From: Noviherbaspirillum saxi | Lineage (GTDB): Bacteria > Pseudomonadota > Gammaproteobacteria > Burkholderiales > Burkholderiaceae_D | Direction of reading: 5' to 3' | DNA length: 64,000 nucleotides | Assembly (NCBI RefSeq): GCF_003591035.1 | Contig: NZ_QYUO01000002.1 | Span: forward strand, 1,426,001-1,490,000 | In this document: one piece after another, positions 1 to 15,106 of the stretch | How the letters are laid out: every line of letters starts with the position of its first letter | Numbering within the stretch: the first letter of the stretch is position 1 | Translations under genes and position numbers: made by a program | The notes under the pieces: generated by a model | What the model saw: the letters and a program-made list of their open reading frames with translations, nothing else | Database searches by the model: none | What the model was told of the DNA's origin: nothing

Positions 1-2
1 TC

Positions 3-134
3 GATGCCGAACAATCGCTTGGCCAGAGCCAGAACACCCTGGTCAACAACGGCAACAACGCCGCTTTCGTTTCCGGCATCACTTCCACCGTGAAACCGCA
101 TCAGCATGGCACCAACACCATCAACTTCGGCTAA
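3..134 (+). CDS. C-terminal end of a double-glycine-type secreted peptide precursor (5' part outside window)
   Basis: An open frame enters from the left edge and stops with TAA at 132-134. It encodes 43 residues rich in Asn, Gln and Gly (for example SQNTLVNNGNN) with no cysteine. The composition matches the core regions of the two downstream peptides (223-489 and 619-903), so I infer it is a third member of the same family and the first of a tandem set. The diagnostic leader with the Gly-Gly type cleavage site would lie left of the window, so membership rests on composition and position only. It could instead be the tail of a longer Asn-rich surface protein. Confidence 0.5.
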   Translation, partial: DAEQSLGQSQNTLVNNGNNAAFVSGITSTVKPHQHGTNTINFG

Positions 135-155
135 TCCCTGTGAGCGAACCCCGAC

Positions 156-176
156 GGTGGAGGCCAGTCCTCCACC
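156..176 (+). other. Intercistronic stem-loop between peptide genes
   Basis: A perfect 8-bp inverted repeat (GGTGGAGG at 156-163 and CCTCCACC at 169-176) with a 5-nt loop lies in the 88-nt gap between the first stop codon and the next peptide ATG. No T-run follows, so it is not a textbook intrinsic terminator. A role in mRNA processing or in unequal expression of the peptides is possible but is inference. Confidence 0.5.
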
Positions 177-222
177 TACCGGATCCGCATCCCACCTCAC
201 CATACATTCCAGGAGTTACACC

Positions 223-489
223 ATGTCCACCATCGCCATTCACGATCTCGCCAACAGCACCGAACTCGACCAGCGCGCCATGTCGCGTGTACGCGGCGGC
301 ACCAACAGCTGGCTCGCCGGCCTGGGTCCGATTGCCAACATCAATGTCGGCGTCACCCAAAACCTGAACCAGTTCCAAAACGTCGAAGTCAACACTCTCA
401 ACAATGTCGGCGTCATCGGTGCAGGTTTCGTACCGCCCCATATCACTGTCAATCCTTCGCAGTGGGGCAATATCAGCGCGACCGTGTAA
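223..489 (+). CDS. Leader-bearing Asn-rich secreted peptide precursor, 88 aa
   Basis: The chosen ATG at 223 follows AGGAG (211-215) with 7-nt spacing; the longer upstream reading has no such site. The product starts MSTIAIHDL and reaches ELDQRAMSRVRGG at residues 14-26. That is an amphipathic leader ending in Gly-Gly, the site type cut by C39 peptidases, and such a peptidase is encoded in the ABC exporter at 3125-6184. The predicted core (residues 27-88) has no Cys and is rich in Asn, Val and Gly, with a patterned NINVGVTQNLNQ stretch, so lanthionine or disulfide chemistry is excluded. Its leader matches the next peptide at about 12 of 26 positions with no gap, while the cores differ. I do not recognise a named family. 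Export as a bacteriocin, signal or surface peptide is inference. Confidence 0.78.
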   Translation: MSTIAIHDLANSTELDQRAMSRVRGGTNSWLAGLGPIANINVGVTQNLNQFQNVEVNTLNNVGVIGAGFVPPHITVNPSQWGNISATV

Positions 490-542
490 AAACGGCACTG
501 GCTGAGGGACAACTAAGGATGCGGACACCTACTATGCGCCAT

Positions 543-558
543 TGGCACGCCAATTGCT
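543..558 (+). promoter_or_regulatory. Sigma54 (-24/-12) promoter upstream of peptide gene 619-903
   Basis: TGGCACGCCAATTGCT matches the RpoN consensus TGGCACG-N4-TTGCW exactly. The invariant GG is at 544-545 and GC at 556-557, the required 12-nt apart. The predicted start is near 569, leaving about 50 nt of leader RNA before the ATG at 619. An enhancer-binding protein of the sigma54 class is encoded at 1812-3128, which supports function. Confidence 0.85.
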
Positions 559-618
559 GTATGAAGAAGCAGGAGCATTTCTGACGCAATATAACCAACA
601 GCCACCTTGGAGACCATC

Positions 619-903
619 ATGACCACACTTTCTATCAAAGACCTTCCGCTGAACCGCGCCCTTGATTCCAAGGCAATGTCGGTCATTCGGGGCGCCGGCG
701 CACCATGGGTCTTCGGATGGATCAGGCCATATGTTGGTTCCACCCCTGCTTTCGGACCGGCTGTGAACTTTTTCCAGATCAACAATACCTATATCGCCGA
801 TCAGATGATCAACCAAATCCAGGTGGTTGACATTAACAACTCGGCATCGAATTCAAACATTAACGTCATCCTTGATGAACGCAGCACAAACCTGAAGCAT
901 TAA
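619..903 (+). CDS. Leader-bearing Asn-rich secreted peptide precursor, 94 aa
   Basis: The ATG at 619 follows the weak site TTGGAG; the in-frame start at 607 would remove the leader alignment. The product begins MTTLSIKDLP and reaches ALDSKAMSVIRGA at residues 14-26, the same leader length as the preceding peptide, with Gly-Ala instead of Gly-Gly at the presumed C39 cleavage site (Gly-Ala is a tolerated variant in such leaders). The core (about residues 27-94) has no Cys, starts with an aromatic patch (APWVFGWIRPYVG) and continues with an Asn/Ile-rich segment. It is transcribed from the sigma54 promoter at 543-558, possibly together with the phosphatase that starts 104 nt after its stop. The function of the mature peptide is unknown. 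Confidence 0.78.
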   Translation: MTTLSIKDLPLNRALDSKAMSVIRGAGAPWVFGWIRPYVGSTPAFGPAVNFFQINNTYIADQMINQIQVVDINNSASNSNINVILDERSTNLKH

Positions 904-1006
904 GCACGCAAGGCCGAGGATTTTGGATGTACGATGTTTATACGACGCGCGGCGGAACGTTGCCCCGCATGGCGTCGCGATGACGGCATGATTCGTGGAG
1001 ACTGTG

Positions 1007-1777
1007 ATGACTGATGCAACACACTTTCGATGGACATCCTCGTCGCGCTCCCACGTGGGCTTGATCCGTGAAATCAACGAGGATTCGTTTCTCGATCGGC
1101 CCGAGCGCGGCATGTGGGCAGTCGCCGACGGCATGGGCGGACACTCTTTGGGGGATTATGCGAGCCGCATGGTGGTCGCCCGACTGGACGACATTCCCTA
1201 TCCTGGCGATCTGAAAAATTTTTTGATCGAAGCGAAGAACCGGCTGCAATCGGCCAACCACGACCTGCGCCAGGAAGCGATCGTGCGCGACGTCTATATC
1301 ATCGGCAGCACCGCCGTCGTTCTTCTGGCATGGGAAAGTGAGTGCGGCTATCTGTGGGCAGGAGACAGCCGCATCTACCGGTACCGGCAGGGCGAACTGC
1401 AACTGCTGACGCGCGATCATAGCCAAGTCGAGGAACTCAAGGCCCGCGCCGGACTCAGCGACGAAGAAGCACAGCAACATGCGACACGCAACATGATTAC
1501 CCGCGCAGTGGGCGCAGCCGACATGCTGGAAATCGATGAAAACGTGGTGCAGGTCGACGACGGCGACATGTTCCTGTTATGCAGCGACGGTTTGAGCAAT
1601 GCAGTCAGCGAGCAGGAAATGCGCAACGCGCTTTCGGTTGGCGATTGTGGGCAGGCATCCGAAACCTTGATCAACATGGCGCTCAACGGCGGCGGACGAG
1701 ACAATATTTCCGCGGTTGTCGTGCGCGTGGACGATGATCGCAGAGGTGACATGACGGCGCTGAATCCGGCGCTGTGA
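1007..1777 (+). CDS. PP2C-family Ser/Thr protein phosphatase
   Basis: This 256-residue protein is a full PPM/PP2C phosphatase of the bacterial Stp/PrpC type, which removes phosphate from Ser/Thr using two or three Mn/Mg ions. Motifs appear in order: GLIREINEDSF, WAVADGMGGH (metal-binding Asp), GSTAV, AGDSRIYRYR, LTRDHS, ITRAVG, LLCSDGLSN and GGRDNISAVVV (metal-binding Asp). The ATG at 1007 is preferred over an in-frame GTG at 995 because GGAG at 997-1000 is spaced 6 nt from it. It follows the peptide genes and converges on the sigma54 activator with a 34-nt gap. No Ser/Thr kinase is visible in the window, so its substrate is unknown; the activator or exporter are candidates by position only. 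No membrane segment is seen. Confidence 0.93.
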   Translation: MTDATHFRWTSSSRSHVGLIREINEDSFLDRPERGMWAVADGMGGHSLGDYASRMVVARLDDIPYPGDLKNFLIEAKNRLQSANHDLRQEAIVRDVYIIGSTAVVLLAWESECGYLWAGDSRIYRYRQGELQLLTRDHSQVEELKARAGLSDEEAQQHATRNMITRAVGAADMLEIDENVVQVDDGDMFLLCSDGLSNAVSEQEMRNALSVGDCGQASETLINMALNGGGRDNISAVVVRVDDDRRGDMTALNPAL

Positions 1778-1811
1778 CAATACGCCGCAATTAGCCTGTA
1801 CATATTCGGCG

Positions 1812-3128
1812 CTACCGGCGCTGGATGGGCGTGTCGCCATTTCCGTCAGGCTGCACAGCCTGACGGCGAAAGTCCTTCGAATGAATGCCATGCTTTTTCA
1901 GCAGCATCTGCAAATGCGAACGGTTCATGTCGCAACGTCTGGCCAGTTCCGCCACCGTACCACCCACTTCCTTCAAACCTTTTTCCAGAAAGGCCTTTTC
2001 CGCCTCATCGCTGGCAATTCTCCTTGCGTCGCTCAATGAAGCGGGCGTGGCGTCCGGGATCGCGGTGCTTTCGTTTACCGTGGTCGCCGCAGTCTGGTTT
2101 TTCGGACGTATGTCGACCGGCAAGTGCACTGTATCGGCGGTTTCTCCGGCAAGACAGGAAAGGCGATAAATGAGATTGCGCAGTTCGCGTATGTTGCCGG
2201 GATAGGAATAAGACAGCAGGAAGGCGCGCAGCGCCGGCGACATTTTCACTGGGCGCCGCTTGAGCATTTCCGCCGCCTCGTCGCAGAAATAAGAGAACAG
2301 CAGCGGAATCTCATCCTTGCGCTCGCGCAGCGGCGGCAGGCTGACATGGATCACGCTCAGGCGATAGAACAGATCTTCGCGGAATGTTCCCTCTTCGCTG
2401 AGACGCCGCAGGTTCTTGTTGGTAGCGGCGACGATGCGGGCGTCGACGACGATCGGTTCATCCGAACCCACCCGCTGGATTTCGTGCGACTCCAGCACTC
2501 GCAGCAGCTTGACCTGACCGGGCAGCGGCAGTTCGCCGATTTCGTCGAGGAATATTGTGCCCTTATGCGCGCTTTCAAATTTTCCCTTGCGATCGTTCGC
2601 CGCGCCGGTGAATGCGCCCTTCTTGTGTCCGAACAGTTCAGACTCCAGCAGGTTGTCCGGAATCGCGCCGCAGTTGACGGAGATATACGGTTTGTCGGCG
2701 CGCGAGCCATTCGCATGGATCACTTTCGCCATCAACTCCTTGCCGGTACCGCTTTCACCATCGATCAGCACCGGCAGATCGGTCGGCGCCGCTTTTTCCG
2801 CGACTTCCAGCGCATCAAGCAATTCGGGGTTATCGCCAAACGTCCCTTCGAACACGAAGCTGCGTTCCAGCAAGGCTTGACGGCGTTGTCCCGGCAATTT
2901 TTCGGTCGGTTCGACTTCCGCGGCTGCAGCCTTGACGAACCGCTCCTTGTGAGAGAGTTGCAGGATTTCATCGCGCAAGGTGTTCGACTGACGCAGCAGC
3001 TTTTCGATTTCCGGCCGTTCCAGCCGCGACGCCCAGCGCAGGGTGGTACGCAGGATCTCGATCTTTTCGATCAAGCCCGCATACGACATCGCTGAACTGC
3101 CAGGTGTGCCAGGTTGAAAGAGTTTCAT
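1812..3128 (-). CDS. Sigma54-dependent transcriptional activator without receiver domain
   Basis: The 438-residue protein has an N-terminal region of about 95 residues that is helical and charged, with no receiver, GAF or PAS signature. An AAA+ sigma54-interaction domain follows: Walker A GESGTGK at 124-130, GAFTGA at 171-176 (the loop that contacts sigma54) and Walker B TIFLDEIGE. The C-terminus is a Fis-type helix-turn-helix (VAELARRCDMNRSHLQMLLKK). It would activate RpoN promoters by ATP hydrolysis, and the -24/-12 promoter at 543-558 is the obvious target. Its ATG overlaps the exporter stop codon as ATGA, so it is probably translationally coupled to the exporter. How it is switched is not visible; the PP2C enzyme next door makes control by Ser/Thr phosphorylation a guess worth noting. 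Confidence 0.92.
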   Translation of the reverse strand: MKLFQPGTPGSSAMSYAGLIEKIEILRTTLRWASRLERPEIEKLLRQSNTLRDEILQLSHKERFVKAAAAEVEPTEKLPGQRRQALLERSFVFEGTFGDNPELLDALEVAEKAAPTDLPVLIDGESGTGKELMAKVIHANGSRADKPYISVNCGAIPDNLLESELFGHKKGAFTGAANDRKGKFESAHKGTIFLDEIGELPLPGQVKLLRVLESHEIQRVGSDEPIVVDARIVAATNKNLRRLSEEGTFREDLFYRLSVIHVSLPPLRERKDEIPLLFSYFCDEAAEMLKRRPVKMSPALRAFLLSYSYPGNIRELRNLIYRLSCLAGETADTVHLPVDIRPKNQTAATTVNESTAIPDATPASLSDARRIASDEAEKAFLEKGLKEVGGTVAELARRCDMNRSHLQMLLKKHGIHSKDFRRQAVQPDGNGDTPIQRR

Positions 3129-6100
3129 GCCGCGCTCAACTGCTTTTGCACCAGTTGGTAATACATGCCGCGCCGGTCGACCAGTTCGTCATGCTGCCCT
3201 TGTTCCACGATCGCGCCTTCATACAACACCAGGATCTTGTCCGCACGCATGATGGTGCTGAGCCTGTGCGCAATGATGACTGCGGTGCGGCCCTTCAGGA
3301 TCTCGTGCATGTTGGTGATGATATTGCTTTCCGACTGGGTGTCGAGCGCCGATGTGGCTTCGTCGAAAACCAGCAGGCGTGGATCGTGATACAGCGAACG
3401 CGCGATGCACAGGCGCTGTATCTGTCCACCCGACAGGCCGGTACCGCGCTCGCCGACCGTCTGTTCGTAGCCGAGGGGCATCTTGGCGATGAAGCCGTGT
3501 GCGTCGGCCATCTTCGCCACTTCCTCGATACGCCGCCGATCCGGACTGCTGTCGCCGCTGGCGATGTTTTCCGCGATCGTGCCGGAAAAGACAAGATTGC
3601 TTTGCATGACATAACCGACTTGCGCCCGGTAATAATCCTTGTCGATCATGTTCATGTCATAACCGTCGATGACGATCTTGCCATCGGTGGGTGCATAGAA
3701 CCCGACCAGCAGCTTGGCCAGCGTGGTCTTGCCTGAGCCGCTACGTCCGACCACGGCAACCAGTTCACCCGGCCTCATTTCGAAGCTGATGTTTTCCAGC
3801 ACATAGGATGTTTCGTTACCGCCATACCGAAAATACACATTGTCGAATTGGATCGCGCCCTGCAGGTCGGGAATCACGATACGCGAAGGCAGATCGGCAG
3901 GTTTCTGTTCCGGTTCCATATCCAGCACATCACCCAATCGTTCCATCGCGACCGCGGCATCATTGAGCCTGCTCCACAAGCCGACCAGGCCCATCAGCGG
4001 AGCCAGCACGCTGCCCATCAGCGCATTGAATGCGATCAGTTGTCCGACGCTGAGTTCGCGCGCAAGCACGAGGTTTGCGCCTACCCACAGAATGGCAATC
4101 GTGGTGGCTGCATTCAGAACCTGGCTGCCGAGTGATACAAGGATGTTGAAGGCTTGGGCGCGATATTGCACGTCCAGCGACTTCGCATATTTCTTTTCCC
4201 ATTTCAGGCGCACGGCGCGCTCTATTCCCATGCCCTTGATGGTTTCCACGCCGCCCAGCGTTTCCATCAGGAAGGCTTGTGCTTCGGTGGAAGTGGTGAA
4301 CGCTTCACGCGCATAGTTCTTGATTCTCGGCGTGACAACCACGGTCAATACCATGATGGGAATGATGAAGGCGATCAGTACCAGTGTCATCCTGGCGTTG
4401 TATAAGAACATGATCGAGAAATAGATGAACACCATCAACAGGTTCAGTATGGTGGTCACCGTCGACTCGGTCAGGAACGCGCGTATCGTCTGGTTTTCCT
4501 GGAAGCGTGCAAGGATGTCGCCGGTCTTGCGTTTGGCAAAGAATGAATACGGCAGCGACATCGTATGACGGAAGAAATGCGACATCATGGCAAAGTCCAT
4601 GTTGCGGACCATGAAGTTCGCCAGATAGGCCCTGATGGTGGTCATCAGTTGCGTGAACACGTTGGAGATGATGAGGCCGGCAATCAAGAGATGCAGCAGG
4701 CCGACATTCTGATGCACGATCACGCCGTCCAGGATGTTCTGAATGATCAGCGGCGGCACGAGACCGAGCATTTGAATCACGAAGGTCGCGACGAACAGAT
4801 GAAAGAGAATTGTCTTGTAAGGCTTCAGGTAGGCAATGAAGCGCAGCCATGGCGAGCGCGTCGCGGCCAGCTCGGCCATTTCGGTGCCGGGTGTAAACAA
4901 CAGGCAGGTGCCGCTCCATCCGCGCTCGAATTCCTCGACCGTCATCTTCCTGAAACCGAGTGCCGGATCGGCCACCCAAATGTTGCGCTTCGAGACGCCA
5001 TAGACCACGACGTAGTGATAGCCTTCCCAGTGAATGATAAAAGGCAGCTCGAAGCCCAGCAGCGCTTCATAGGTGCATTGCACGCCGCGTGTCGTAAAAC
5101 CCAGCGAATCGCCGACACGAGCCAGGCTGTCCAGCGTGGCACCCTGCGTCGTGACATTGGCCAACTCGCGCAGCTTGCCCAGCGTCATGGAGATCCCGTA
5201 ATGCTTGCATAGCATTGCCAGGCATGCAGCGCCGCAATCCATTTCTTCGGCTTGCTCTATCAGCGGGAAGCGCTTGATGACGCGTTCGCCATGCTCTGGC
5301 TGGGTACGCAGGTCGAGCGTGACTGGACGCTTGCGCCGGTCCGCCAGTTTCTTTTGCCTGTGCAACTCTCTTTCTATGAACTGGATGCGCTCTTCCAACG
5401 CCTCGCGCAGTTTCGGATTGCGCTCGACGATTTGGTGGATCGTCTTTTCGGGAATCACCAATAGCGTGGTATCGGCATTGGCCGTCACTGTCGCCATCTG
5501 CTCCTGGCGCATGACGCAGGCTTTTTCGCCAAAGATTTCGCCATCGCGCAAGGTCGCCAGCGGATACTCTTCGCCTGCTTCGCTGCGTACGATCCTCACT
5601 TCGCCATGACGCACCACATAGAGCCGCCGGTCATCGCGCGTATCCTGCTTCAGGATTTCCTTGCCCGCACTCACGCGCTTGACGCCGACGCTGCGGATGA
5701 ATTCTTCCAGCTCTTTTTTGTTAACCTTGCCTTTCAGATCGAACAGGCGGGCGACAAAGCCGCCGGCAGAACTGATCGCCACATAGCTGGTGACAAATGC
5801 ATAAGCGGCGGGATTCTGCAGAATCACCGGCTCGATCGCCTGACGGGGAATGAACAGCAATTCGGTCTTCACCGACGCGCGCACCGACGACTCGTGCCGG
5901 TAGTCACGCAGCATGGCGACGTCGGCGAATACCTCGCCGACCTTGCGTACGCCCATGCTGATTTCTTTTCCTTGCTCTTCGGTAAAGATGCGCACCGAAC
6001 CGGTCTTGATCACAAACAAGCCATGCGCCGGATCGCCTGCATTGCATACGGTGTCGCCAAAGGCATAGAAGCGCGACTCCGCCTGCGCGGCAAGCCTTTC

Positions 6101-6184
6101 AAGCTCGTCGCGCGTAAACGGCGACAAGATCTCTACGGATGAAAGGAATTCCGTAACCGGCTGGAGTTGTGATGGTGCATCCAT
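3125..6184 (-). CDS. Peptidase-containing ABC exporter with two cyclic-nucleotide-binding domains
   Basis: This 1019-residue exporter has four parts. Two cNMP-binding folds lie at about 15-135 and 150-270. A C39 peptidase lies at about 305-430, with the oxyanion Gln311, catalytic Cys317 in MDCGAACLAM, His390 and Asp406 all present. A six-helix ABC membrane domain spans about 445-740. The ATPase follows, with Walker A GRSGSGKTT, signature LSGGQ, Walker B LLVFDEATSALD and H-loop IIAHRLST. C39 exporters remove double-glycine leaders while pumping the peptide out, so the RGG/RGA peptides at 223-903 are the expected cargo. The doubled cNMP module suggests gating by cAMP or cGMP, as in HetC-like and NHLM-type exporters; the ligand is not known. 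It sits between a parvulin gene (19-nt gap) and the activator (4-nt overlap). No outer membrane or adaptor protein is encoded nearby. Confidence 0.94.
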   Translation of the reverse strand: MDAPSQLQPVTEFLSSVEILSPFTRDELERLAAQAESRFYAFGDTVCNAGDPAHGLFVIKTGSVRIFTEEQGKEISMGVRKVGEVFADVAMLRDYRHESSVRASVKTELLFIPRQAIEPVILQNPAAYAFVTSYVAISSAGGFVARLFDLKGKVNKKELEEFIRSVGVKRVSAGKEILKQDTRDDRRLYVVRHGEVRIVRSEAGEEYPLATLRDGEIFGEKACVMRQEQMATVTANADTTLLVIPEKTIHQIVERNPKLREALEERIQFIERELHRQKKLADRRKRPVTLDLRTQPEHGERVIKRFPLIEQAEEMDCGAACLAMLCKHYGISMTLGKLRELANVTTQGATLDSLARVGDSLGFTTRGVQCTYEALLGFELPFIIHWEGYHYVVVYGVSKRNIWVADPALGFRKMTVEEFERGWSGTCLLFTPGTEMAELAATRSPWLRFIAYLKPYKTILFHLFVATFVIQMLGLVPPLIIQNILDGVIVHQNVGLLHLLIAGLIISNVFTQLMTTIRAYLANFMVRNMDFAMMSHFFRHTMSLPYSFFAKRKTGDILARFQENQTIRAFLTESTVTTILNLLMVFIYFSIMFLYNARMTLVLIAFIIPIMVLTVVVTPRIKNYAREAFTTSTEAQAFLMETLGGVETIKGMGIERAVRLKWEKKYAKSLDVQYRAQAFNILVSLGSQVLNAATTIAILWVGANLVLARELSVGQLIAFNALMGSVLAPLMGLVGLWSRLNDAAVAMERLGDVLDMEPEQKPADLPSRIVIPDLQGAIQFDNVYFRYGGNETSYVLENISFEMRPGELVAVVGRSGSGKTTLAKLLVGFYAPTDGKIVIDGYDMNMIDKDYYRAQVGYVMQSNLVFSGTIAENIASGDSSPDRRRIEEVAKMADAHGFIAKMPLGYEQTVGERGTGLSGGQIQRLCIARSLYHDPRLLVFDEATSALDTQSESNIITNMHEILKGRTAVIIAHRLSTIMRADKILVLYEGAIVEQGQHDELVDRRGMYYQLVQKQLSAA

Positions 6185-6203
6185 GTGTGAGCCATTCCCG
6201 CCC

Positions 6204-6956
6204 CTACCGTGCTTCGATGATATGTTCCTGCGCCCGGCCTAGCAGCCAGTCCTCGCGCAATTGCCGCCGGATTTCTGCCGCGGCTTCCTCATCAAGCGTG
6301 GCCGGATGCTTTGCCGTGACGGTAAAGATTTCGAATTGCGACTTGTCATGCGAAGCAAACGGGCCCAGCAGGTCGCCGACCTTCGCATTGAAGACCCGCG
6401 CTTCGATATCGGTCTTGAGCGAACCGCGCAAAACCTTGCCGATCACGCCGCCCCGCTCCCGGGTGTCGGCGATCGAATGTTCGCGCGCCATCTCGGCAAA
6501 GCTGTCGGGATCGTCGCGCAGCACCGACATCATTTCCTTGGCTTTGCCTTCTGCATCGAGCACGATATGGCTGACTTCGATGCTGTCGAATTTCGGTGAA
6601 TTCAGCTTGAAGTATTCTTCGATCGCACGCTCGTTGCAGACCTTTGCGATCATTTTTTCCTGGTACAGCGCATCGGTGATAAATTCCTCGAACTCATCCA
6701 GGCTGACACCGAGCGCGTCCAGGTACTGGTTCATGTCGGCCGCGCGGTGCAAGCCCTGGACCCGGCGGAACTGGTCCGCTCGTTCCTGTATTTCCTCGGC
6801 CGACACCGGAATCCCGCCCTTCTTCGCCGCATTCACCGTCAGCTTGTCGCGCACGATCTGTTCGACCAGACTCTCGAACTGGCCGCCGAGCTTCAGTATC
6901 CTGACGAAGTCATCGACATTGATGACTTCGTCATCGATTCGCACTATATCCGTCAT
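6204..6956 (-). CDS. Cytoplasmic parvulin-type (PpiC/SurA-like) peptidyl-prolyl isomerase for peptide export
   Basis: The 250-residue protein has an N-terminal helical SurA-like chaperone region (about 1-120) and a parvulin domain at about 125-220. The parvulin motifs are EVSHIVL, FAEMAREHS, ERGGVIGKVLRG and GDLLGPFASHDKSQFEIFTV. Unlike SurA or PpiD it has no signal peptide or membrane anchor, so it should act in the cytoplasm. Isomerases of this kind recur beside C39-type peptide exporters and are annotated as peptide maturation factors. Here it is the first gene of the operon parvulin-exporter-activator, so holding the precursors in an export-ready state is a reasonable inference. Both complete peptide cores contain prolines. 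Confidence 0.85.
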   Translation of the reverse strand: MTDIVRIDDEVINVDDFVRILKLGGQFESLVEQIVRDKLTVNAAKKGGIPVSAEEIQERADQFRRVQGLHRAADMNQYLDALGVSLDEFEEFITDALYQEKMIAKVCNERAIEEYFKLNSPKFDSIEVSHIVLDAEGKAKEMMSVLRDDPDSFAEMAREHSIADTRERGGVIGKVLRGSLKTDIEARVFNAKVGDLLGPFASHDKSQFEIFTVTAKHPATLDEEAAAEIRRQLREDWLLGRAQEHIIEAR

Positions 6957-7398: not shown

Positions 7399-8340
7399 AT
7401 GATCATTGCAACACATTCAGGTAAATTTCACGCAGACGATGTCTGGGCGGCCACTGTGCTCAATATTCTCTTCCCCGGCAGCGAACTGATACGCACCCGC
7501 GATCCCGAAAAAATCCGGGCGGCCGATTTTGCAGTCGATGTGGGCGGCATTTGGGATCCGCAAGCCGGACGTTTCGACCATCATCAAAAAGGTTTCGCCG
7601 GCGCACGCGAATCGGGTGTCGTCTATGCCAGCGCAGGCCTGGTCTGGAAAACCCATGGCGCGCCTTGCGTGGTTGCGCTGGCGCGTTCCTCACTGCAAAC
7701 CGAATTGTCGGATGAACAGGCGCAACAGATTGCCCATGCCATCGATGGCGATCTGGTCCAGTATCTGGACATGTCCGATACCGGGGCGGCAAAGAATGCG
7801 CCTGGCGGCTACGGCTTGTCAGCGGTGATTTCCGGCTTCAACCCTACCTGGATCGATGAACAGCAGGCGGCCGACGCAGCAGCCGCGGATGGATTGCGAC
7901 TCTCTCAGTTCCGCCGCGCGATGGAGTTCATCGCCGACATTCTCGTGAATGCGGTGAAATACCGGGTCGGCGGGATGCTCGCGGTGGAACAGGTCCGCCG
8001 CTCCGAGCCGCTCGAAGACGGCGCCCTGCTATTTCTCGCCAACAGCGCCCTGCCCTGGGCCGCCATTGTTCGCAATGAAATGCCCAAGGTCCTGTTCGTG
8101 ATCAGCCACAACTTGAGTGAACAGCGCTATATGCTGCATACCGTTCCGGCGACCGTCGATACGTTTGAAGCGCGCAAGGATTTACCGGCGCGCTGGGCCG
8201 GCCTGCAAGGCGCGGAACTGGCCGAAGTCACAGGCGTTGCCGATGCCGGCTTTTGCCATAACAACCTGTTTATTGCATCCGCCGGCTCGTTCGAAGGCGC
8301 GCTGACCATGGCGCGGCTCGCGTTGGCCGAGAAAATTTAA
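7399..8340 (+). CDS. MYG1/UPF0160-family DHH phosphoesterase-like protein
   Basis: The 313-residue protein matches the MYG1 family. It starts IIATHSGKFHADDVWAATVL, followed by DFAVDVGG, then GRFDHHQKGF, and later GDLVQYLDM, AVISGFNPTW and the C-terminal substrate-binding part. The DHH-like motifs coordinate metal ions in this superfamily, and eukaryotic MYG1 is a 3'-5' RNA exonuclease. The bacterial role is not established, so I assign a metal-dependent phosphoesterase or nuclease only. The length is normal for the family. It begins a rightward series with sbcDC, with 96 nt to sbcD. No strong ribosome site is seen upstream of the ATG, but the conserved N-terminus fixes the start. Confidence 0.88.
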   Translation: MIIATHSGKFHADDVWAATVLNILFPGSELIRTRDPEKIRAADFAVDVGGIWDPQAGRFDHHQKGFAGARESGVVYASAGLVWKTHGAPCVVALARSSLQTELSDEQAQQIAHAIDGDLVQYLDMSDTGAAKNAPGGYGLSAVISGFNPTWIDEQQAADAAAADGLRLSQFRRAMEFIADILVNAVKYRVGGMLAVEQVRRSEPLEDGALLFLANSALPWAAIVRNEMPKVLFVISHNLSEQRYMLHTVPATVDTFEARKDLPARWAGLQGAELAEVTGVADAGFCHNNLFIASAGSFEGALTMARLALAEKI

Positions 8341-8436
8341 TCGATCATTTCACCTCTGCCGCCATGCGCGGCGGAAATGCTATATTCGCGCCCACGCCGG
8401 CGGTATCCTGTCCGGCATCGTTGCGAAAGGATTCTG

Positions 8437-9675
8437 ATGCGCCTGCTGCATACTTCGGATTGGCATCTCGGCCAGGCCTTGCATAATTACGACCGTGCAC
8501 ATGAACACGAGCGGTTTCTGGAGTGGCTGCTCGATACCATCGAAGAGCAGGCGGTCGATGCCTTGCTCGTTGCAGGAGATATTTTCGATAACGCCAATCC
8601 GTCGGCCGCATCTCAGCGTCAGTTCTATCGCTTTCTGCAACAGGCGAAACAGCGCGCACCTCAGCTCAACATCGTCATCATTGCCGGCAACCACGATTCG
8701 CCGGGCCGGCTGGAAGCGCCCCGACCTTTGCTTGAAGGAATGAAGATCACGATAGTCGGCCATGTGTCGCGCCTGCCCGACGGTACGATCGACCACACGC
8801 AACTGCTGGTGCCGCTGGTGCGGCCGGACGGCTCGGTCGGTGCATGGTGTCTCGCCGTGCCTTTCCTGCGGCCGGGCGACGTGCCGCGGGTGGAATCCGA
8901 CGGCGATCCTTATATGGATGGCGTGGCGCTGCTCTATCGGCAGGTGCTCGATGGCGCGCTGGGGCGGCGCGAAGACGGGCAAGCCATCATTGCGCTCGGC
9001 CATTGCCATATGACCGGCGGCGAAGTCTCCGCCGACTCGGAACGCCGCATTGTCGTCGGCGGTGCAGAAGCGCTCTCTGCCAGAATGTTCGATGCGCCGG
9101 TCGCCTATGCCGCGCTCGGCCATCTGCACAAGGCCCAGCGTGTCGCCGGCTGCGAGCATGTGCGTTATTGCGGCAGCCCGATCCCGATGTCCTTCGCGGA
9201 AGTCGATTACGCGCATCAGGTACTGTGCATCGATCTGAACGGCGATTCGGTTGCCGCGATACGCGAAATCCGGGTACCGAGGTCGGTCGAACTGCTGCGC
9301 ATACCGCGCCACCCCGGTACGATCGATGAGGCGCTTGCGGCATTGCATGCCCTCGACATTCCGCCGTTACCGGAAATTCACCGTCACGCCTATCTGGAAG
9401 TGCGGGTTCGACTGGATGGGCCGGAACCCGGCTTGCGCGCGAAGGTGGAAGCGGCACTGGAAGGAAAGCCGGTGCGTCTGGCAAAGATCGATACCAGCAC
9501 CGCGCGTCGCGTTGCCGAGCACGCCGAACCGATACCGGTCGACGACCTCGACACGCTTCAGCCGGATGAAATCTTCAAGCGCCTTTATCAGGCGCGTTAC
9601 GGCAGCGAGGTAAGCCCTGATCAGCTCGCCGCCTTTACCGAACTTCTGCTTGCGGCTGACCGCCAGCCATCCTGA
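8437..9675 (+). CDS. sbcD: Exonuclease subunit SbcD
   Basis: This 412-residue protein is the Mre11-type nuclease of the SbcCD complex, which cleaves DNA hairpins and processes double-strand ends together with SbcC. The metallophosphoesterase motifs are in order: TSDWHLG, AGDIFDNANPS, IAGNHDSPGRLE, ALGHCHMTGG and LGHLHKAQ. The ATG at 8437 follows GAAAGG with 6-nt spacing and gives the family-typical start MRLLHTSDWHLGQ; a longer in-frame start at 8377 adds a non-conserved extension. The stop is 6 nt from the sbcC ATG, so the two are translationally close, as is usual for this operon. Confidence 0.97.
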   Translation: MRLLHTSDWHLGQALHNYDRAHEHERFLEWLLDTIEEQAVDALLVAGDIFDNANPSAASQRQFYRFLQQAKQRAPQLNIVIIAGNHDSPGRLEAPRPLLEGMKITIVGHVSRLPDGTIDHTQLLVPLVRPDGSVGAWCLAVPFLRPGDVPRVESDGDPYMDGVALLYRQVLDGALGRREDGQAIIALGHCHMTGGEVSADSERRIVVGGAEALSARMFDAPVAYAALGHLHKAQRVAGCEHVRYCGSPIPMSFAEVDYAHQVLCIDLNGDSVAAIREIRVPRSVELLRIPRHPGTIDEALAALHALDIPPLPEIHRHAYLEVRVRLDGPEPGLRAKVEAALEGKPVRLAKIDTSTARRVAEHAEPIPVDDLDTLQPDEIFKRLYQARYGSEVSPDQLAAFTELLLAADRQPS

Positions 9676-13425: not shown

Positions 13426-13559
13426 CGCATCATCAAACACGATCGCGTTACGTTGCAAACGTTACATTTCTTAACACGACGACAATGAATCTTTCGGAGG
13501 AGAGCTGTCTGATTCAATGACACGACGATGTCATCTTTATCTACTCTGAAAGCATACGC

Positions 13560-13883
13560 ATGAATAAATTGATCGCTACTCTCTTGACAGGCTTGTTTGC
13601 AACTTCCGTGTTCGCTCAGGCGACCAACACAACAACTACGACGGCTCCCACCACCGGCATGAGCTCGGGTGCATCGACCACGCTCGAAACACCGGCATCG
13701 AAGGCTGATATCAAGGCGGACGCCAAAGCAGAGAAGGCAGACGCCAAGGCTGACGAGAAGGCGGCCAAGGCCGATGCAAAGGCACAGAAGAAGATCGCAA
13801 AGGCAGATGCCAAGGCGAAGAAAGACAAGGCCGAAGCGAGTGTAGATGCTGCCGAAAAGAAGGCGGACGCGCAATCCAAGTAA
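13560..13883 (+). CDS. Secreted or periplasmic Lys/Ala/Asp-repeat protein
   Basis: The 107-residue product starts with a clear signal peptide (MNKLIATLLTGLFATSVFAQA, cleavage after AFA or AQA). A Thr-rich linker follows, then an unbroken run of KADAKA-like repeats from about residue 48 to the end, with almost only Lys, Ala, Asp and Glu. The repeat should form a highly charged helix in the periplasm. Similar low-complexity exported proteins occur in Burkholderiales without known function, and I assign none. GAAAG sits 7 nt before the ATG. The gene is a single unit, closed by a strong terminator at 13911-13940. The repeat makes homology assignments unreliable because composition alone gives matches to histone-like and cell-envelope proteins. 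Confidence 0.75.
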   Translation: MNKLIATLLTGLFATSVFAQATNTTTTTAPTTGMSSGASTTLETPASKADIKADAKAEKADAKADEKAAKADAKAQKKIAKADAKAKKDKAEASVDAAEKKADAQSK

Positions 13884-13910
13884 ATGCGTTGTTGACACAA
13901 TTGCAGGAAT

Positions 13911-13940
13911 AAAAAAGGCAGGCATGGTCCTGCCTTTTTT
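13911..13940 (+). terminator. Intrinsic terminator after the Lys/Ala repeat gene
   Basis: AAAAAAGGCAGG (13911-13922), a 6-nt loop and CCTGCCTTTTTT (13929-13940) form a perfect stem flanked by A and T runs, 27 nt after the stop codon. It could work in both directions. Confidence 0.93.
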
Positions 13941-14118
13941 ATTGCATGCACGCACATGCCCACAAAATTTTCTTTGCAAACATTCAGTCAATACGAGCAG
14001 CGCTCGGTTCTTCAGTTCGCATAGAAGATGATGAACACCGACCCGACAGTCATCGGATATACAGCGATTTCACTCCGCATGCACAGTGAATTTCTCTGCT
14101 TACATATTGCACCGCGAC

Positions 14119-14146
14119 TTGTTCCCTCTGCCGTTGGACCTATACT
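14119..14146 (+). promoter_or_regulatory. Possible sigma70 promoter for the 83-aa gene
   Basis: TATACT at 14141-14146 is a good -10 element; TTGTTC at 14119-14124 is a weak -35 with a 16-nt gap. The predicted start near 14152 supports the GTG at 14174 over a TTG at 14150 as the translation start. Confidence 0.4.
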
Positions 14147-14173
14147 CGATTGACTGAACTCGCGGAGGTAGAC

Positions 14174-14425
14174 GTGGACAAGTACCGGATTCTTGAGCGC
14201 ATGATGCATAACGAGAATGAGGCAGTGGACACCGATCTCTATTGCATTTCTGCATTACTCGCCGAGCGCCTGGCAGAAATTTCCCCAAAATTAAGTTCTA
14301 GCGAGATGGAGCGCTTCATTGAAATAGGCGCTGCGATATGTCGTTACGGACATCGGGAATTCGGCGCGAGCGTTCCGGTCGAAGACTTATTTCCCCAGAG
14401 TGAAATCTGGAGCAATCTGCGCTGA
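14174..14425 (+). CDS. Small soluble protein of unknown function, 83 aa
   Basis: The GTG at 14174 follows GGAGG (14164-14168) at good spacing and lies downstream of a plausible promoter. The product (MDKYRILERMMHNENEAVDTDL...) is acidic and probably all helical, with no signal peptide, membrane segment or recognisable motif. It has two Cys residues, too far apart for a simple metal site. I do not recognise the family. It is followed 155 nt later by another small gene with its own promoter, so the two are probably separate units. The real-gene call rests on the ribosome site, the upstream -10 element and non-biased protein composition. Confidence 0.6.
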   Translation: MDKYRILERMMHNENEAVDTDLYCISALLAERLAEISPKLSSSEMERFIEIGAAICRYGHREFGASVPVEDLFPQSEIWSNLR

Positions 14426-14513
14426 TTTTCCTTGTGGTGCGGATTGAATTTGATGTCTATGTCGCGCACGGCCAACGACTCTTCCAAAGTCGTTGAAAAA
14501 ACGTCAATCGCGT

Positions 14514-14542
14514 TTTACACCGGACCTGCGCAGGCATATACT
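14514..14542 (+). promoter_or_regulatory. Sigma70 promoter for the 85-aa gene
   Basis: TTTACA at 14514-14519 (5 of 6 matches to TTGACA), a 17-nt spacer and TATACT at 14537-14542 (5 of 6 matches to TATAAT) precede the ATG at 14581. The predicted start is about 14549, giving a short leader. Confidence 0.65.
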
Positions 14543-14580
14543 CAGTTTTGTGCACTGCACTGCACTGTAGCGAGGTCAAC

Positions 14581-14838
14581 ATGCAAAAGTCGTTTTCCCG
14601 TTCGTCGCCAACCAAGGTTCTCCCTGTCGGCGATATTCCGCCAAGCGCTCCAGCCTTGTTCGAGTCTGATCGCTCGGATCGCCCCGAAAAACTGACGCGT
14701 GAAGATGTATCGCGATGCATCAATATCTGGGCCAAGATGTACCGCCTAAGTGATGATGACACCAGTACCGCAGATCTATGCATGCCGCCGCGTACATGTA
14801 TCGGTAGAAGTCCCGATCGCCTTAAACGCTTTGATTAA
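14581..14838 (+). CDS. Small protein of unknown function, 85 aa
   Basis: The ATG at 14581 has GAGG about 8 nt upstream and lies just after a good sigma70 promoter; an earlier in-frame ATG at 14548 would sit at the transcription start and is disfavoured. The product starts MQKSFSRSSPTKVLPVGDIP, has a disordered Ser/Pro-rich N-terminus, a short helical segment (REDVSRCINIWAKMYRLS) and a basic C-terminus. There is no signal peptide or membrane segment, and I do not recognise the family. The 268 nt that follow, up to the VanZ-like gene, contain no supported gene. Confidence 0.55.
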   Translation: MQKSFSRSSPTKVLPVGDIPPSAPALFESDRSDRPEKLTREDVSRCINIWAKMYRLSDDDTSTADLCMPPRTCIGRSPDRLKRFD

Positions 14839-15106
14839 TTGAAAGCGATATAACCGGCCATACCTGACCGGACTACCGGGAGGGGATACGCTGGACGGCG
14901 ACATGCTTCGCCCCCTGACGGTCCACTACCGATCCCGCTCCTTAACATGACGAAGAAATCAATGGATTTTTTCGATTGCAAGGCGCAGGAAGAGCCAATA
15001 ACGGTGCCTATTAGCGAAGAGTGCGACGCAGGCAGGCGGCTCGGCGCCCCCCGGAAAAAGACGCAGTTTCATGTCCCGTTAGGGGGCAGGATTGGCATAC
15101 CACCTG

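Follow-up and report, generated by a model that had tools for sequence, protein, structure and literature searches.

The locus considered here raises the question of what is exported by a peptidase-containing ABC transporter that carries two cyclic nucleotide monophosphate (cNMP)-type modules ahead of its peptidase, and how that export is controlled. It lies at the start of a 64,000 bp stretch from Noviherbaspirillum saxi (the window; G000:C2:1426001-1490000, within a genome of 6.5 Mb). The best explanation of the whole is a dedicated type I system that exports small Asn/Gln-rich proteins under gated control, with a product that self-assembles outside the cell, an account to which slightly better than even weight is given. 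That the genes represent a secretion system with its own regulon is highly probable; given that part, the reading of the product as surface or matrix material is evenly balanced. What the window shows is one end of a larger system.

Gene content of the locus

The following features were located in the window.

1..134, plus strand: class A precursor, 3' end only (whole gene L005:13859-14134, equivalent to G000:C2:1425859-1426134)
223..489, plus strand: class B double-glycine precursor, 88 aa (leader profile E value 7.3e-15, for the same gene in L005)
543..559, plus strand: sigma54 -24/-12 type site TGGCACGCCAATTGCTG, 76 bp ahead of the class C precursor start
619..903, plus strand: class C double-glycine precursor, 94 aa, leader ending IRGA, the conserved copy ahead of PP2C (leader profile)
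1007..1777, plus strand: PP2C-type Ser/Thr phosphatase (PF13672, 7.7e-12)
1812..3128, minus strand: sigma54-dependent activator (enhancer-binding protein, EBP) with a C-terminal helix-turn-helix (weak HTH_8; Sigma54_activat 1.4e-69, GAFTGA)
3125..6184, minus strand: cNMP-cNMP-C39-ABC exporter (peptidase-containing ABC transporter), 1019 aa (Pfam domains)
6204..6956, minus strand: parvulin-type peptidyl-prolyl isomerase, 250 aa, first gene of the parvulin-exporter-EBP operon (Rotamase 2.1e-12)

The parvulin, exporter, EBP, PP2C and precursors lie where an initial annotation, made from the sequence, had placed them, and open reading frame (ORF) and domain scans agree. Parvulin, exporter and EBP form one tight minus-strand operon, with PP2C and the precursors on the plus strand.

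Relatives of the exporter numbered 259 in the searched genome contigs, and the best 80 were used as loci L057-L136, a choice that skews the sample towards close relatives. Each locus covers at most 23 kb; 63 are full length and some are cut by contig ends. Unless stated otherwise, counts refer to these 80 loci, which hold 190 leader genes in 73 loci (183 distinct peptides) and 140 first genes, 138 of them with at least 300 bp of upstream sequence. This recount was used because, in an earlier wider set, L053 and L054 overlap L132 and a few sites were counted twice; the wider set gave the same promoter and palindrome picture. Precursor classes A to D were assigned by sequence patterns defined in this analysis.

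The exporter

The exporter matched cNMP_binding (PF00027) in two stretches (1.4e-35), Peptidase_C39 (PF03412; 5.3e-40), ABC_membrane (PF00664) and ABC_tran (PF00005). All catalytic residues of the C39 and ABC parts had been reported as present, and they proved invariant across the relatives: C317, H390 and D406 of the peptidase, and K819, LSGGQ, D941, E942 and H973 of the ABC part, are found in 80/80, the remaining motif positions in 77-80 of the 80. The two cNMP modules are likewise borne out as domain matches, but the label is structural only, because the Arg of the phosphate-binding cassette that contacts phosphate is replaced in both, by His97 (79/80) and Gln229 (80/80), as judged by eye against the known cAMP motif. 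Canonical binding of cAMP by the pair is probably not to be expected. Four C39 domains were found in the genome (E values up to 0.001), and only the ORF of the exporter (1037 aa) is long enough for an ABC exporter, the other three open frames comprising 311, 261 and 349 aa. The closest named relatives are from Noviherbaspirillum, with identities of up to 90%.

Precursor peptides and their leader

Ten leaders from this genome served as the seed of a leader profile, which yielded 218 matches in the first pass and 219 after three further passes. Fifteen of these 219 belong to this genome itself, the window being counted again, and 214 were kept after removal of window duplicates, weak matches and those without a start Met. 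The 190 leader genes obtained after filtering place the leader above chance. GG stands exactly at positions 25-26 in 166 of the 190, many of the others having GA or a shift by one. The two complete window peptides do have the common 26-residue leader ascribed to them, with ends RGG and RGA, and the third precursor, described as cut by the window edge, is the 3' end of a real gene. The class B peptide has a mature part of 62 aa after VRGG (calculated isoelectric point (pI) 5.2) and a paralogue at L005:5114-5380 that differs by one residue.

Three precursor arrays are present upstream, in L005, at 4750-5787 (three genes), 8109-9048 (three genes) and 13527-14903 (four genes). The window takes in two genes of the last array whole and, at its edge, part of a third; seven whole precursor genes are found just outside it. 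The stretches L005:7800-8400 and L005:13200-13830, each with palindrome, promoter and first precursor, appear recently duplicated, the DNA being near-identical by eye and the protein identical, which suggests that arrays grow by segmental duplication. Short leader peptides, often Arg-rich, make up class D (L005:5587-5787, L060:20096-20299, L065:15443(-)). Judged by eye only, the DNA separating precursor arrays also encodes a HipA-like kinase and its helix-turn-helix partner, at L005:9121-10790(-).

The earlier statement that the peptide genes lie beside the exporter holds for the arrays of the window and L005, but leader genes also occur far away: three are scattered in the genome (C2:143227, C2:255324 and C1:1639961), either 1.17-1.29 Mb from the exporter or on another contig. 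These are weak whole-precursor matches (E 0.08-0.8) identified through the leader, and BLAST does not connect their mature parts with the main precursor family. Since the 26-residue leader heads mature sequences unrelated to that family and far from the exporter, as noted at L020:5227, L021:5961(-) and L022:6324(-), the exporter may accept diverse cargo.

Median ratios of non-synonymous to synonymous substitution (dN/dS) were 0.10 for class C and 0.24 for class A (60 non-independent pairs each, 75-97% identity), and the precursor genes look like coding sequence on which purifying selection acts. BLAST connects most mature parts of classes A, B and C in one group (181 of 198, from the 80 loci, this genome and two further genomes). 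In composition they contain 13.9% Asn and 6.4% Gln; median net charge is -1 and median pI 5.3 (n=184). A Q-x3-Q-x-Q core occurs in 136/184, compared with 2.25 after shuffling. Absence of Cys, as noted earlier, is true of the two complete window peptides but not of the family, 15 of the 183 distinct mature parts having one.

Pfam and NCBIfam were scanned with the window precursors, Pfam with 64 class A members and NCBIfam with 37 class C members. In these two databases the window peptides and classes A and C matched no curated family above chance level, scattered weak matches apart. At E values up to 0.001 the class A profile retrieves 708 proteins; among the 120 matches listed none has a Pfam domain, and any names are hypothetical or uncharacterized.

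Sigma54-like promoter sites and the palindrome

Most first genes have a sigma54-like site within the 160 bp ahead of them (class A 68/74, class C 56/59), where shuffling leads one to expect 0.9 per class (124/133 against 1.8 for both classes together). Control genes show no such enrichment: the counts are 0/79 for the parvulin, 0/80 for the exporter, 0/69 for PP2C and 3/78 for the EBP. An initial, overly narrow sigma54 pattern caught 62 of 154 first genes; the wider one used here was chosen after the sequences had been seen and was run with shuffled controls.

A palindrome was first noticed in this genome, where ATCCAACA-N14-TGTTGGAT (up to two mismatches) occurs at two places only, both ahead of arrays. 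In its strict form, CCAACA-N9-15-TGTTGG, it has 49 copies in the 1.74 Mb of the 80 loci, and 48 of these lie within 600 bp upstream of a leader gene. A relaxed form precedes 45/74 class A and 46/59 class C first genes (expected 0.7 and 0.6). Seven controls with permuted arms gave no copies, except ACCAAC (three) and AACACC (one), all close to leader genes. Two palindromes seen ahead of exporter or parvulin genes were set aside as artefacts of loci cut at the contig start (L106, L124).

Genome-wide, the strict arms with 9-16 bases between them occur at seven places, against one for a reversed control pattern. Four are ahead of precursors, two are in coding DNA by their ORFs (C1:2641048 and C3:1335224) and one is at C2:1232865. 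At this last place (L182) a sigma54-like site follows 179 bp downstream and a leader gene was not found; it is possible that the copy is another target of the activator, or due to chance. The scattered gene at C2:143227 sits behind its own palindrome and sigma54 site. The distance between palindrome and sigma54 site is 148-149 bp at three arrays of this genome and 139 bp at C2:143011; of 23 such pairs, 12 are spaced by 131-149 bp and 11 by 206-365 bp.

The position of 48 of the 49 copies just upstream of leader genes leads us to read the palindrome as the activator's site, and the EBP may bind it. In the EBP the second position of GAFTGA is A in 76/80 relatives, the other five residues and Walker A are conserved in 80/80, and the helix-turn-helix is conserved among relatives; a receiver domain was not matched in the domain scan. 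That the machine is a C39 type I exporter having its own regulon is well supported.

Co-occurrence and distribution

Co-occurrence was assessed in 249 genomes of one family (that of G255), with E values up to 1e-40 for the exporter and up to 1e-6 for the class A and class C precursor profiles. Leader genes without such an exporter had been named beforehand as the outcome that would speak against the link. The exporter is present in 79 of the genomes, all of which match both precursor profiles, and two of the 170 exporter-negative genomes have any precursor match. One of these (G566) shows a partial class C match with an internal stop and two weak class A matches; the other (G602, fragmented) matches class A only. 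In total the class C profile matches 80 and the class A profile 81 of the 249 genomes, although the two are not fully independent, since the class A profile can cross-match class C. Exporter-positive genomes have 1-9 class A profile matches each, cross-matches to other classes included. Conservation and co-occurrence together support what had been proposed of sigma54 control, double-glycine leaders and a cognate exporter.

The system occurs in Paraburkholderia, Caballeronia, Cupriavidus, Noviherbaspirillum and Aromatoleum. It is patchy, as a close exporter was found in three of 399 sampled genomes of the order, this genome included. Within the phylum, 398 genomes were searched; a cNMP-cNMP-C39 exporter with 30-33% identity occurs in another seven, and the neighbourhoods of five of these (L175-L179) were examined. 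In L176 the neighbours are an EBP (40%), a parvulin-like gene (22%) and an HlyD-like gene, the last judged by eye; in L175 they are a partial EBP (40%) and an HlyD-like gene (24%); and L177-L179 carry genes that look by eye FHA-like, HlyD-like or channel-like. Near these five exporters no convincing precursor was detected with the leader profile. Distant members of the phylum appear to have a related module, in which a cNMP-cNMP-C39 exporter has HlyD, FHA, EBP or parvulin neighbours.

Other parts of the machine

The set of five parts named in the initial annotation was too small, as further components adjoin. The following lie outside the window, further upstream than the L005 arrays; ORF starts in L139 are the longest possible, and the ORFs partly overlap.

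C2:1403226-1404596 (L139:11223-12725 as the longest possible ORF): HlyD adaptor, 74% identity to the LB400 HlyD used as query
L139:12593-15088: double-FHA protein
L139:15089-16705, beside the HlyD gene region: outer-membrane channel (OEP)
L139:16633-18570: FHA-GAF-HD protein with an HD-GYP signature, HHEKLDGSGYP (by eye)

Two DUF4399 proteins are also encoded in L139, and the start of L005 encodes a caspase-FGE protein and a Ser/Thr kinase (STPK) with DUF4384. In Paraburkholderia xenovorans LB400 (L116) the channel, double-FHA, HlyD, parvulin, exporter and EBP genes are contiguous. Across the 80 loci the EBP was counted in 80, the parvulin in 79, PP2C in 70, HlyD and the double-FHA protein in 66 each, the channel in 65, DUF4399 in 59, caspase-FGE in 54, the STPK in six and the FHA-HD-GYP protein in five.

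The parvulin adjoins the exporter in 79 of the 80 loci, and inspection by eye showed no signal peptide on it. PP2C is Stp1-like in NCBIfam, under the cut-off (197.3 against 230 bits), with D41, D194 and D232 invariant in 70/70 aligned relatives. A leader gene lies within 500 bp ahead of PP2C in 68 of 69 loci, and the nearest is of class C in 63.

Proposed mechanism and nature of the product

From the parts, their conservation, the promoter-like sites and the co-occurrence, the following course can be proposed. The EBP, bound to the palindrome some 130-150 bp (or at least 200 bp) upstream of the sigma54 promoter, would act with RpoN to switch on the multicopy, scattered precursor genes. The cytoplasmic parvulin probably escorts the precursors, and the C39 domain would cut the 26-residue double-glycine leader during export, the route out leading from the ABC exporter through HlyD to the outer-membrane channel. 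Cleavage, export and control are proposed in this form because they follow established knowledge of C39 exporters and sigma54 activators. Output may be gated post-translationally by the two cNMP-fold modules of the exporter, and a relay of Ser/Thr kinase, PP2C and FHA proteins may provide a second gate; the class C precursor and PP2C are probably on one transcript. Outside the cell the peptides would most likely self-assemble into surface or matrix material, with class A as the major and class C as a conserved minor subunit.

What favours material over a bacteriocin or a signal is that the peptides carry almost no net charge, are rich in Asn and Gln and come from multicopy genes, and that immunity genes are not found next to these; little room exists for such genes, as 58 of 60 gaps between neighbouring precursor genes are at most 322 bp (median 67). 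The recurrent Q-x3-Q-x-Q core and the conserved class C gene beside PP2C were also counted for a structural product. A number of results weigh on the other side. AlphaFold models of one class C and one class A precursor were poor and gave no support for a fibre, with a mean predicted local distance difference test (pLDDT) score of 43.5 for class C (two 3-residue strands) and 60.2 for class A (no strand). The 16 Pfam families to which any of the 64 class A members showed a match (E up to 1) include no curlin or other amyloid-repeat family, and no positive lag-2 (strand-like) autocorrelation of hydrophobicity was found (-0.045 compared with -0.018 after shuffling). Bacteriocin models were matched weakly: lactococcin G-beta/enterocin 1071B by 15 of 37 class C members (best E 0.0044) and Bacteriocin_IIc by one of 64 class A members (E 0.1). 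The regulon also has gaps, in that the palindrome is not present ahead of many precursors, class D first genes mostly have no sigma54 site (1/4), and no leader gene was found for one of the 49 palindromes (L101:2898) or for three of the seven strict copies in this genome. The relay may not be universal, as the STPK and FHA-HD-GYP genes are each seen in so few of the loci of up to 23 kb.

That the peptides are microcin-like bacteriocins acting on related soil bacteria, with paralogues that broaden the target range, is considered rather unlikely. A C39 exporter with a double-glycine leader is the classic bacteriocin route by established knowledge, class A is variable and multicopy, and the weak model matches point the same way, but the mature parts are not cationic, class C is under purifying selection, and the spaces between precursors are scant for an immunity gene (immunity genes elsewhere were not sought). 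Extracellular signals for population sensing, fed back through the kinase, phosphatase, FHA proteins and EBP, appear unlikely to a further degree. The precursor promoters and the probable activator do lie together, PP2C stands directly behind a precursor in nearly every locus, and HetC, the one characterised cNMP-bearing transporter of this type found, is a proposed exporter of a signalling peptide in the excerpted text of PMC10986499. Mature parts of mostly 60-80 residues with several divergent paralogues per genome are, however, large and redundant for a signal, and a dedicated receptor gene was not noticed, although no search was aimed at receptors. It is very improbable that the peptides are ribosomally synthesised and post-translationally modified peptides (RiPPs) whose leader serves both the exporter and a maturase encoded elsewhere. 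The strong conservation of the leader, the linked caspase-FGE and DUF4399 genes and the listing of the TIGR04500 isomerase family among graspetide-locus genes in the excerpted text of PMC8939145 would suit such a product; on the other hand Cys is rare in the mature parts, and reading of the gene lists of L005, L139, L116, L065, L060 and L098 brought up no ATP-grasp, YcaO, radical SAM or lanthionine enzyme, although no profile search was aimed at such enzymes.

The preferred reading of a self-assembling material can be taken further only tentatively, to a new extracellular-polymer pathway in which a C39 exporter, gated by a nucleotide-binding module and a Ser/Thr phosphorylation relay, would deliver leader-cleaved major (class A) and minor (class C) subunits from a sigma54 regulon. 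For the 708 proteins of the class A profile these results supply a probable exporter, activator and control relay, in common genera associated with plants and soil, and the code of palindrome and sigma54 site allows cargo genes to be predicted anywhere in a genome. The peptides could be building blocks of a material on the cell surface, weapons or signals, made and exported on command in many Burkholderia-related soil bacteria.

Comparison with known systems

No description of the system was found in searches of open-licence full-text papers in PMC. A candidate from Azoarcus BH72, as it appears in the excerpt of PMC3262810, is not the same system, its C39 match being poor (E 0.51), and the excerpt of PMC3223724 contains the general double-glycine rule only.

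The Gram-negative exporters of double-glycine bacteriocins (colicin V type) likewise combine a C39-ABC protein, HlyD, an outer-membrane channel and a GG leader. The system described here differs in its additional cNMP modules, parvulin, sigma54 activator and FHA and kinase parts, and in precursors that are scattered, near-neutral and without neighbouring immunity genes. A C39 exporter with a PpiC-like maturation protein is also found in the NHLP/TIGR04500 peptide maturation systems, but here both proteins fall under the curated NCBIfam cut-offs (560.6 against 853.3 bits for the exporter; 96.2 against 180 bits for the parvulin, whose best NCBIfam match is TIGR04500). A modification enzyme was not noticed in the gene lists, without a profile search, and the two window peptides and class C gave no match to the NHLP precursor families. 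Curli and other functional amyloids resemble the proposed product in their small, Asn/Gln-rich secreted subunits of major and minor types, whereas no amyloid-repeat profile was matched here and export would be of type I with leader cleavage. The grouping of a kinase, PP2C and FHA proteins at a single secretion machine resembles the PpkA-Fha-PppA control of type VI secretion, although the machine here is a type I exporter and type VI secretion genes were not noticed in the gene lists.

Of the characterised proteins found, HetC of Nostoc PCC 7120 comes nearest; in the excerpt of PMC10986499 it is a peptidase-containing ABC exporter that has a cNMP domain at its N-terminus, binds ppGpp and has a substrate that is not known. 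In both cases a cNMP fold is fused ahead of C39 and ABC parts and export of a peptide is suspected. HetC is described there with one such domain, compared with two here, and the candidate substrates of the present exporter form a family with a leader and a regulon, so that cNMP-bearing C39 exporters gain a system with candidate substrates that can be named and tested.

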